Below are positions 1 to 5,820 of a DNA stretch of 34,684 bases, piece after piece; position 1 is the stretch's first letter, and each line of letters opens with the position of its first letter. Source of the DNA: a virus; IMG/VR virus record IMGVR_UViG_3300021963_000379, positions 1-34,684 of that record. The stretch is one strand, 5' to 3'. The notes beneath the pieces were generated by a model that saw only the letters and a list, made by a program, of their open reading frames with translations, was not told where the DNA came from and did no database searches. The translations under genes and the position numbers were made by a program.

Positions 1-128
1 TCGGATGTTTCGGACATCAGTCGTAAATAAATGATGGGTTGTTTTGCTTGTTCAGGTCTATGTATTACCAAGACTACCCAGTTTCCCCTGTCGTTAGACA
101 ATAGGACAGTTCCATAATTTTTGCTCAT
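1..128 (-). CDS. Possible partial protein running off the left edge
   Basis: An open leftward frame starts with ATG at 128, directly after an in-frame TAA, and stays open to the window edge for about 42 codons. The visible product begins MSKNYGTVLLSND and has a balanced, soluble-looking composition with a hydrophobic stretch (WVVLVI). I do not recognise the family. No convincing Shine-Dalgarno sequence precedes the ATG, and a frame this short could be chance. It would be co-directional with the regulator at 368-604. Confidence 0.35.
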   Translation of the reverse strand, partial: MSKNYGTVLLSNDRGNWVVLVIHRPEQAKQPIIYLRLMSETS

Positions 129-367
129 TTATTCGCAAAATATGGGGCATTGCTGCCGTTTCGCTTCTGAAGTATTTACGGCCTTTACCGCATCATCACG
201 CCTGTGTGCGGGCTAGACAGAAAGAGAAAACCCCTTTGGGTAGCTCTAAGTTGATACCGCTTTAGGAAGCACTCCACAGGCTTTCCAAAACGCTCAAAGC
301 TACCCAAAAGGGTCTTAATGGAGTTCTACTAAACAGGTATCAATCTGCCCCGTCAGTATAACACCAA
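129..367. other. Non-coding control region with interleaved inverted repeats
   Basis: No credible gene is seen between the left-edge frame and the regulator. The stretch holds the strong interleaved inverted repeats at 232-343, annotated separately, and a weak GCCGT/ACGGC pair at 155-182. It lies directly downstream of the leftward regulator gene, so it would be the 3' part of that transcript, or a separate small RNA in either direction. Confidence 0.6.
232..343. repeat. Two interleaved inverted repeats in A-B-A'-B' order; candidate pseudoknot or antisense-RNA element
   Basis: Arm A (232-245, CCCTTTGGGTAGCT) is complementary to A' (298-312) with one bulged A. Arm B (251-275) is complementary to B' (320-343) in three blocks: TTGATACC/GGTATCAA (8 bp), TTTAG/CTAAA (5 bp) and ACTCC/GGAGT (5 bp). 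The spacers are 5, 22 and 7 nt. The order A-B-A'-B' means the two helices interlock, which is H-type pseudoknot topology on either strand. Alternatively, one half of the element could act in trans on the other half. Phage immunity RNAs of the P1/P7 C4 and P4 CI kind use repeated complementary segments beside regulator genes. That comparison is inference only; I cannot match it to an RNA family. Confidence 0.6.
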
Positions 368-604
368 TTAACGCAACTCAGGCCAAATTAATGAGTATGA
401 ATCGGGGAATAAGTCCTTACGGCTTACTAAACCTTTAGATTCCTGTTCTAACAACGCCCCTAAATAAACCATCTTATCGGCTGGAATACCTGAGTTTTTC
501 CACATAGACACCGCAGGTACGCTAATTTTGCAGATTTTGGCTATTTTGGTAGGCCCACCCAGTAACTCGATAATTTGACTATCGGTAAACATTTTCTTCT
601 TCAT
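368..604 (-). CDS. Cro/YdaS-like helix-turn-helix regulator
   Basis: A 78-residue protein with one helix-turn-helix over about residues 10-45. A segment reading GGPTKIAKICKIS is followed by the turn and recognition helix AVSMWKNSGIPADK, a pattern typical of Cro/YdaS-type phage regulators ('G...lA..lgvs..aVs.W...G'). It should bind operator DNA as a dimer and set the early/late or lysogeny decision. It is transcribed leftward, divergent from the early operon starting at 712. A TTAA-N6-TTAA site at 604-617 overlaps its start, suggesting autoregulation. The first ATG (604) has no clear Shine-Dalgarno; a second ATG at 592, preceded by GAAGAAGA, is an alternative start. No second repressor or integrase is seen nearby. 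Confidence 0.8.
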   Translation of the reverse strand: MKKKMFTDSQIIELLGGPTKIAKICKISVPAVSMWKNSGIPADKMVYLGALLEQESKGLVSRKDLFPDSYSLIWPELR

Positions 605-617
605 TAAGCAAGTTTAA
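604..617. promoter_or_regulatory. Candidate operator (TTAA-N6-TTAA) at regulator start
   Basis: TTAAGCAAGTTTAA on the + strand, read on the - strand as TTAAACTTGCTTAA, matches the sites at 657-670 and 2801-2814 (shared form TTAA-nYTkGC-TTAA). It overlaps the start codon of the leftward regulator, where binding would repress that gene. Binding is inferred, not shown. Confidence 0.45.
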
Positions 618-644
618 CAAAAATACAACGCCATATCAAATAGT

Positions 645-673
645 TTGCACATTTATTTAATTTGGCTTAATAT
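645..673 (+). promoter_or_regulatory. Candidate early promoter overlapping operator site
   Basis: A -35-like TTGCAC (645-650) and a -10-like TAATAT (668-673) are separated by 17 nt upstream of the rightward early operon. The TTAATTTGGCTTAA site (657-670) lies in the spacer and runs into the -10, the usual place for a repressor to block polymerase. Both hexamers are imperfect matches to the sigma-70 consensus, so confidence is moderate. Confidence 0.45.
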
Positions 674-711
674 GGTGGTACAGCATAAGCTGTTTACTTT
701 TGGAGATGATT

Positions 712-4554: not shown

Positions 4555-4988
4555 TATTTATAACCCCATACTAAAAAGTAAGCTATTACGCCAGCTACCG
4601 CAAAACACCAAAACTGTGCATTTCTAGCCTTGTTTAAATCTTTGTTAAATTCTTTCTGAAACTCTTTCTCTTGCTTCTCTAGCTTGGCTTTTAGGGCTTC
4701 AACTTCTGCCCATCGTTTGCCATACTTTTTTAAAAAATCTGCTCTAATCTGTGCTTCTTCTCGTCTAACTCGTTCTTCGTGTTCCCATTGCATCAATACC
4801 CGTTTTAGGAATAACTCTTTGCGGACTTCGTTTTCTCGTAACTCTCTGCGTCTATCTATATTTCGTTGTACTGCAACATCGGTGGCTTCTTTTTGAACAT
4901 TCTCAATACTTTTAGAAAGTTCTTTAGCACTTGCTCGGCTTGTATCAAGGTTACTAGTTAGGGTTTTAATCCCTTCGTGAAGTTCCAT
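4554..4988 (-). CDS. Coiled-coil protein with C-terminal membrane anchor (lysis-cassette associated)
   Basis: A 144-residue protein, highly charged and helical throughout (long Glu/Lys/Arg-rich coiled coil, about residues 10-120), with one membrane helix at the C-terminus (FWCFAVAGVIAYFLVWGYK). I prefer the ATG at 4988, 4 nt after the upstream stop; an in-frame ATG at 5015 adds 9 residues but overlaps the upstream gene. Neither start has a strong ribosome site. Position next to holin and endolysin suggests a lysis accessory role. It lacks an N-terminal anchor and a lipobox, so it is not a classical i- or o-spanin. The function is unassigned. Confidence 0.75.
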   Translation of the reverse strand: MELHEGIKTLTSNLDTSRASAKELSKSIENVQKEATDVAVQRNIDRRRELRENEVRKELFLKRVLMQWEHEERVRREEAQIRADFLKKYGKRWAEVEALKAKLEKQEKEFQKEFNKDLNKARNAQFWCFAVAGVIAYFLVWGYK

Positions 4989-4992
4989 AGTT

Positions 4993-5160
4993 TCATTTTG
5001 GCAAAGACCACCCATGAGTTGTTAGGTAGGCATAGCCTAAACCAGCTACAAAGACATAGAAAATAGTACGGATAGAGAACCAACCAAACTGGGTTACTTT
5101 CTCATTTAACCACTCTTTAATGGCTTCTTTAACGATTTCTTTTTCAATTTCGTTAGCCAT
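4993..5160 (-). CDS. Small single-pass membrane protein of the lysis region
   Basis: A 55-residue protein, MANEIEKEIVKEAIKEWLNE then KVTQFGWFSIRTIFYVFVAG, with an amphipathic charged N-terminal helix and one membrane helix (about residues 31-46). It ends HGWSLPK. AAAAGG lies upstream of the ATG. It is co-directional with holin and endolysin. An antiholin or an extra pore component are possible roles, but nothing in the sequence decides this. Confidence 0.7.
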   Translation of the reverse strand: MANEIEKEIVKEAIKEWLNEKVTQFGWFSIRTIFYVFVAGLGYAYLTTHGWSLPK

Positions 5161-5162
5161 AA

Positions 5163-5336
5163 TTAAACCTTTTTGCGTACAGTTCTAGTCGTTGCTTTTT
5201 TGACCACAGGCTTGCGTTTAACCGCAGTTTTTTTGGGCGTAGCTTTAACTTCACCTTCCCAATCATTGAGAATAGTAAGCCAATGCACCTTTTTGGTGTA
5301 GCCCATCTTATCAAACATCCAATCAATTAGGAACAT
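5163..5336 (-). CDS. Small protein with basic Lys/Arg-rich tail
   Basis: A 57-residue protein. The N-terminal half is mixed (MFLIDWMFDKMGYTKKVHWL) and the C-terminal half is strongly basic (KKTAVKRKPVVKKATTRTVR plus KKV), resembling DNA- or RNA-binding tails. A strong ribosome site (GAGGT, 5 nt spacing) precedes the ATG, which overlaps the 3' end of the 5323-5820 gene. No family is recognised. The basic tail is low-complexity, so homology searches may be misleading. Confidence 0.7.
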   Translation of the reverse strand: MFLIDWMFDKMGYTKKVHWLTILNDWEGEVKATPKKTAVKRKPVVKKATTRTVRKKV

Positions 5337-5820
5337 TTTGCACCTCTACATAGTTAGGGTCGTTGGGCCAAGTAACAGTTAATTGTGCCAATTCATCAAC
5401 ATCAGCGCAAGCATTAACCGCAGTAATAGCGTTCTCACAAGTAGTCCGTATTGATGCTCTCCATGTGTTCCAATCGGTTGGGATTGGGGTGGATGTTTCT
5501 ACAGACTTTACGACCATCCAATCGGTAGGCAAGAGCATGGTGTATGCGGTGGTTCTTAGCTGACTAACCGCATTGGTTTTGCAAGTATCTAAATCTTTAG
5601 GATTGTTTATGTAAGTTAATGTTGCACCATTTAGTTCTTGGCTAACCCAGTAGTATTGTTGATTGGCGGGGCTATTAGTCGCAATAACTTCCTCTAAACC
5701 AATGTCAATCTTTTCTTGTGGGGTAGATAGGTTTAAACAAATTTGTTGGTTATTGATACCATTAATTTCAAAAGGTGTACCTTCTTGAATGTATTGTCCT
5801 GTGGTTGTGCAATAAAACAT
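5323..5820 (-). CDS. Putative tail fibre assembly / accessory protein
   Basis: A 165-residue protein directly downstream of the large adhesin. It begins MFYCTTTGQYIQEGTPFEIN and has a second half with LRTTAYTMLLPTDWMVVKSV, where 'lL..tDW..v' is a motif common in tail fibre assembly chaperones and tail accessory proteins. It ends VTWPNDPNYVEV. Such chaperones help fibre folding and trimerisation. The call rests on this motif and position behind the fibre gene. It could instead be a minor virion component. Confidence 0.65.
   Translation of the reverse strand: MFYCTTTGQYIQEGTPFEINGINNQQICLNLSTPQEKIDIGLEEVIATNSPANQQYYWVSQELNGATLTYINNPKDLDTCKTNAVSQLRTTAYTMLLPTDWMVVKSVETSTPIPTDWNTWRASIRTTCENAITAVNACADVDELAQLTVTWPNDPNYVEVQNVPN

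Follow-up and report, generated by a model that had tools for sequence, protein, structure and literature searches.

A predicted double-pseudoknot RNA between a Cro-like regulator gene and the replication operon of phages, and its possible role as a leader attenuator

Two interleaved inverted repeats lie next to the sole regulator gene in a 34,684-nt stretch of viral DNA (the window; IMG/VR record IMGVR_UViG_3300021963_000379, positions 1 to 34,684). Comparison with relatives indicated that these repeats encode a small, very strongly conserved double-pseudoknot RNA of ~130 nt (217–348, minus strand). The locus is situated between the Cro-like regulator gene and the replication operon, and the element is probably a so-far undescribed RNA control element. 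In the preferred reading, to which we give a probability of slightly less than one half, it would head a phage non-coding RNA gene as its 5' leader domain and control transcription in cis, by conditional or partial termination (attenuation).

Interleaved helices and their covariation

The sequence-only reading had described two pairs of complementary segments, and both were found at the positions claimed, in the order A-B-A'-B' on the plus strand. Pair A joins 227–250 with 293–316 (24 nt, 83% complementary) and pair B joins 251–265 with 329–343 (15 nt, 87% complementary). Folding of both strands demonstrated that the repeats were not due to chance: the minus strand gave −60.5 kcal/mol (z of −5.2), which none of 200 shuffles equalled, and the plus strand folded more poorly (z of −3.1). 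Nevertheless, the first description had to be corrected in several points. The RNA strand is the minus strand, along which the order is B'-A'-B-A. B' forms the loop of a 5' hairpin (345–348/333–336), so that B'/B is a loop-bulge contact. A third interleaved helix (D' 319–324 with D 273–278) and an inner arm (280–292 with 258–270) had been missed, and the element reaches to a U-tract at about 218–230. The 24-bp stem 227–250/293–316 runs on into the 13-bp arm, the sole break being the 7-nt bulge B (Table 1). The H1 stem showed little variation in the main subgroup, and other groups had different stems. A putative helix P0, in which a 5' GCAGA would pair with UCUGC past the U-tract, was 98% paired with hardly any variation.

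Table 1. Features of the element and its flanks, in the order of the RNA from its upstream side, followed by the neighbouring module and gene
Feature	Position	Strand	Observation
−10 box TATACT	355–360	minus	6 nt before the first conserved G of the RNA
5' hairpin H1, stem 345–348/333–336	333–348	minus	97.7% of cells paired, 32 sequences
B', H1 loop, pairs with bulge B	337–343	minus	two-sided changes in 6/7 pairs, 99.1% paired
D', segment of the single-stranded linker, partner of apical loop D	319–324	minus	6–10 bp helix in 32/32
A', 5' strand of the long terminator-like stem	293–316	minus	92–96% of cells paired; 8 pairs with two-sided changes
C', 5' strand of the inner arm	280–292	minus	9/13 pairs with two-sided changes; 96.9% paired
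D, apical loop segment, partner of D'	273–278	minus	D'/D helix count
C, 3' strand of the inner arm	258–270	minus	alignment covariation
B, 7-nt 3' bulge, putative docking site for the 5' hairpin loop	251–257	minus	7 nt in 241/265
A, 3' strand of the long stem, GC-rich base	227–250	minus	complementarity to A' and alignment covariation
U-tract right behind the stem base, terminator-like	218–230	minus	T run of at least 4 in 164/167 distinct elements
Downstream structured non-coding module (type c), start only, cut by the contig end	1–216	minus	homologous in L006, L022, L066, L102
Cro/YdaS-like HTH regulator, 78 aa	368–604	minus	PHROG 35, PF15943; immediately upstream of the element

An exact 20-mer of the element retrieved 33 IMG/VR contigs, and two looser patterns retrieved 99 and 96 stretches. 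Because the looser patterns fixed parts of helix A, its conservation in that group is partly by construction; for this reason an independent scan was run with the cores of the downstream modules, without touching the element, which yielded 86, 66, 63 and 12 contigs. Most of these contigs had the same architecture upstream, many of them with wholly different sequence. The interleaving claimed for the window recurred in uncultivated phage contigs, in about 280 upstream regions whose sequences differ widely, with compensatory changes throughout. When 283 regions were folded automatically, 265 yielded a single long hairpin with just one 3' bulge, mostly of 7 nt. An exact Watson–Crick or G-U complement in the own 5' tail was found for 32 of 36 distinct 7-nt bulges, versus 7.9% of non-cognate tails; with Watson–Crick pairs only, the values were 29 of 36 and 0.6%.

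In a non-redundant alignment of 32 sequences, 95.7% of the cells were in standard pairs and 24 pairs showed two-sided changes. The covariation score reached 0.410, whereas shuffles scored 0.181 and slid controls no more than 0.102. The D'/D helix was counted separately, because the linker varies in length, and was formed by 32 different sequences in the 32 elements. In the wider set, the longest D'/D Watson–Crick run was at least 6 in 61% of cognate versus 4.7% of non-cognate combinations, which marks D'/D as a trait of the main subgroup and not a universal one; it was absent from some diverged groups. Compensatory changes were found in both interleaved helices, as expected of a generic pseudoknotted structured RNA, and the pseudoknot topology suggested earlier was strongly supported by the B'/B and D'/D values (Table 1).

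The element of one relative (L019) looked recombinant, with D of one type, D' of another and a weakened D helix, which could reflect a natural or an assembly chimera. Pattern matches in bacterial genomes (L106, L107) were dismissed as chance, with no second strand. A protein-coding reading was also rejected: a frame out of the element was protein-like in one relative, and the homologous stretch of the window has stops.

Strand and ends of the RNA

The stems averaged −44.4 kcal/mol on the RNA (minus) strand versus −27.9 kcal/mol for the reverse complement, which folded better in none of 129 cases. On the RNA strand, 752 G-U pairs were counted versus 50 A·C mismatches. This asymmetry already largely refutes the idea that the repeats act as DNA, for example as an attachment site, a resolution site or an origin. 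Inverted repeats at a fixed site between recombining gene modules would suit such a role, but the distance to the −10 box is fixed and the interleaved helices covary, so that we give this explanation almost no credence.

An exact TATAAT or TATACT was observed just upstream in 106 of 119 distinct upstream regions, and a box with at most one mismatch in 114, as compared with 29% of the shuffled controls. The gap was 6–8 nt in 111 of the 114 close matches. Judging from the position of this box, the most likely transcription start is ~348 on the minus strand. No −35 consensus was found upstream of the element, and a standard −35/−10 scan found no promoter. At the other end, a GC-rich stem directly followed by a U-tract, as in intrinsic terminators, was present in 164 of 167 distinct elements. 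It was missing only in the L308/L311/L312 group, which keeps the pseudoknot. A stock scan for compact terminators made no call at the element, because the stem encloses ~42 nt, 13 further pairs included. As the standard scans found neither a promoter nor a terminator, both ends of the RNA are putative.

Comparison with known RNAs

The regulator gene lies directly upstream on the same strand (604–368), just as the sequence-only reading had it. Its product matched PHROG 35 ('transcriptional repressor', 4.9e-14) and PF15943 above the cut-off of that family, and PF14549 (P22_Cro) below its cut-off.

Rfam holds no model for the element. A search of window positions 1–700, both strands, against all 4227 Rfam families at E ≤ 5 gave nothing but an unrelated snoRNA at 0.73. 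RF02932 and the self-cleaving ribozymes of Rfam, the HDV-like ones included, had no covariance-model match either in the whole window at gathering score or in 1–700 at E ≤ 5. In the relatives, searched at gathering score or E ≤ 1, only RF02932 (in the downstream module, never in the element) and one tRNA were found. tRNAs were absent from the element region, no DNA similarity was detected in named phage and plasmid records, and no description of the element was found in open-licence papers.

It had been proposed earlier that the repeats might form a sense/antisense arrangement as in the immunity RNAs C4 of P1/P7 and CI of P4. These are also phage RNAs with internal complementary segments near a regulator. 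By analogy, B' and D' would serve as antisense seeds against the B and D segments of nascent transcripts, and their pairing in trans would set the specificity of immunity. The adjoining regulator gene and the fast diversification of B and D within a conserved frame (36 distinct bulges) would fit. In contrast to those RNAs, however, the pairs of the element are intramolecular, interleaved and coevolving. All four partner segments were located within 217–348, with no target sites outside the RNA; the partners lie within ~110 nt of one ~130-nt RNA and would pair in cis. The element also has its own −10 box and terminator-like 3' end, the region is single-copy in the window genome, no separate target leader was found, and no Rfam family of this kind matched either strand at E ≤ 5. 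The immunity reading is thus unsupported and very improbable, and the element is not of the C4/P4-CI type by any feature tested.

Other known RNAs share some of these traits. Lambda nutR/tR1 and HK022 put are RNA control elements, with a terminator, that act in cis on transcription between a Cro-like gene and replication genes, and the present element resembles lambda nutR/tR1 by its position. It differs in that it would begin a transcript of its own, with a non-coding module behind it, and no boxA/boxB or put-like sequence was noticed. Riboswitches of the preQ1 and SAM-II type resemble it in coupling a leader pseudoknot to a terminator-like stem, but no conserved core like a ligand-binding one was seen across diverged groups (L135 and L238 versus the window), and an ncRNA instead of a metabolic gene lies behind the element. 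GOLLD and ROOL are large structured phage-associated RNAs known from freshwater and other metagenomes (PMC12286853); the element is smaller and a modular 5' domain, and no Rfam match to GOLLD or ROOL was obtained at E ≤ 1 in the nine loci searched.

Downstream modules and the attenuator reading

Behind the element, ORFs in the relatives resumed mostly 250–600 nt and up to 840 nt downstream, and the stretch in between held at least five alternative, sequence-unrelated structured non-coding modules. RNAalifold energies of modules a, d, e and c were well below those of column-shuffled controls, with two-sided changes in 24, 11, 19 and 12 pairs, respectively (three sequences only for c). Module e was identified as Rfam's Betaproteobacteria-1 RNA, RF02932, which starts right behind the element in L016, L042, L060, L090 and L092 and shares a predicted transcription unit with it in many relatives. 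Nevertheless, the element is not a member of RF02932: the model covers the downstream module only, the element is found ahead of unrelated modules as well, and RF02932 can occur in its absence. A module was found directly at the promoter, without the element, in L113, L114, L116, L121, L138 and L207. The sequence-only reading had taken loss of the repeats next to a retained regulator as grounds to doubt them. Such loss did occur in a minority of relatives (L113/L114/L116/L121/L207), which marks the element as optional and does not call its existence into question.

At least four types of 250–350 nt module (a/b, c, d, e) showed covarying consensus folds (window 1–216, minus strand, L002, L049, L043 and L016). 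For modules a/b, c and d, Rfam gave no match, and they appear to represent distinct RNA families that are as yet undescribed. RF02932 (120 positions) was observed in phage contigs L016, L042, L060, L090, L092 and L109–L187, and the consensus fold around it seems to extend beyond the 3' limit of that model. Contig IMGVR_UViG_3300047557_000594 (44.4 kb; L117, L120) carried two copies of RF02932 at a distance of 35.2 kb, and their B sequences differed; this could be explained by tandem prophages, by a redundant end or by a chimera. In L004 and L019, an HNH-endonuclease-like gene stood in place of the structured module right behind the element, and in L016 another HNH-like gene followed the module. 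These genes may be a sign of homing at this site.

According to the sequence comparison, the RNA most likely starts at ~348, and the 5' hairpin loop B' pairs with the 7-nt bulge B of the long hairpin, joined in the main subgroup by pairing of the linker D' with the apical loop D. The hairpin closes in its GC-rich base and U-tract like an intrinsic terminator, ahead of one of several unrelated modules. If the element acts as an attenuator, B'/B and D'/D, both of which could form before strand A is made, might govern the manner and timing of A'/A terminator stem closure, and with it the frequency of polymerase read-through into the module. The balance would be set by some factor, for which a phage or host protein, an RNA or the transcription speed are candidates. 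No −10-like box was seen between the U-tract and the module, suggesting that the module depends on read-through. The start-site position, the near-universal terminator-like end and read-through as the sole visible route to the module together argue for an attenuator in cis. The simplest reading, a leader of the protein operon, was rejected; a second promoter-like stretch, TTGACA-17-TAATAA (L028), precedes that operon 400–550 nt further on.

With the hairpin modelled as straight, the apical loop was out of reach for D' (mostly 0–7 nt from A') in all 124 cases, whereas B' was able to contact the bulge in 155 of 167, which would fit alternative states. However, the inner arm could fold back at the 7-nt bulge and accommodate all helices together (23 bp, compared with 13 plus 8 to 10 bp). 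With a sharp bend of this kind the argument for mutual exclusion would fail, and geometry does not decide.

Some observations speak against attenuation. The stem, with ~42 nt enclosed, is not a compact textbook terminator and was not called by the stock scan, no competing antiterminator stem overlaps strand A, and D'/D is not shared by all diverged groups. The L308/L311/L312 group, which lost the U-tract and kept the pseudoknot, implies that termination is not the sole function and argues for a further or different role, such as 5'-end protection. Element and module might then form one long ncRNA, in which the double pseudoknot buries the 5' end as an exonuclease-resistant or RNase-E-blocking-like cap and the U-tract is structural or weakly terminating. 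At its extreme 5' end the RNA is anchored in the fold by the 5' hairpin, the helix lengths permit a compact folded-back state, and a position ahead of unrelated modules suits generic protection. But the near-universal GC stem with U-tract exceeds what a cap needs, and modules also occur without the element. We regard protection as possible, though rather unlikely, as the main function.

The exact flanking of a very stable fold by a fixed −10 box and a terminator-like end would also suit a stand-alone small RNA of ~115–130 nt that has a promoter and a terminator to itself and acts in trans (as a decoy, in anti-defence or in regulation), the module being a separate product of read-through. Against this, the modules apparently lack a separate promoter wherever the element precedes them and lie at the promoter where it is absent, and no conserved single-stranded target-binding segment was seen across groups. 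A trans-acting small RNA therefore appears distinctly improbable.

An extension of the attenuator reading, which we put forward tentatively and hold to be doubtful, is that the element represents a new kind of RNA switch in phages. Its double pseudoknot would serve as a terminator at the transcription start and gate interchangeable large ncRNAs, the bulge/loop specificities diversifying from phage to phage within a retained frame, and the modules would be phage effector or regulatory RNAs not seen before. The element adds a widespread, very well supported pseudoknotted RNA family missing from Rfam, and gives the orphan Betaproteobacteria-1 RNA a genomic context in a phage early-region transcription unit with a control domain. 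Whole ncRNA modules are swapped by phages behind one conserved 5' domain. With hundreds of natural compensatory variants, the effect of interleaved pseudoknots on intrinsic termination would be open to a clean test.

Genomic neighbourhood

In the public phage MW202674.1 from Manatee Spring, the order of the locus was conserved: the regulator is followed by a diverged element, a module and the replication genes. In the deposited annotation of this record, 4581–5377 (L320), which spans the Cro-like gene and the ncRNA region, is filled with five small minus-strand CDS, and the plus-strand Cro-like gene is missing. In an Acinetobacter phage with a related Cro gene, CII lies directly behind that gene. 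The ORFs of the window included a podovirus-like set (portal, terminase, C5 methylase, metallophosphoesterase) and the Cro-like regulator; among them no integrase gene was noticed.

TTAAG..CTTAA-like inverted repeats were observed at window 603–622 and 652–671, near the promoter of the regulator, and at the promoter-like stretch of the downstream operon past the module in L006, L028 and L049; none was seen at the ncRNA promoter. They are probable operators of the Cro-like regulator. Another short conserved inverted repeat (TAGGGTAANTCCTA-like) was present ahead of the downstream operon, behind unrelated modules, in L028, L049, L102, L042 and L066.

When the element detector was applied to six related or neighbouring phage records (L313–L316, L318 and L320) and two regulator regions (L317 and L319), two weak matches were obtained; as the detector misses the diverged element of MW202674.1, its negatives are weak. 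A weak match at about 4649 of L313 (MW291508.1), minus strand, fell in an intergenic gap of Stenotrophomonas phage BUCT555 and may be due to chance.
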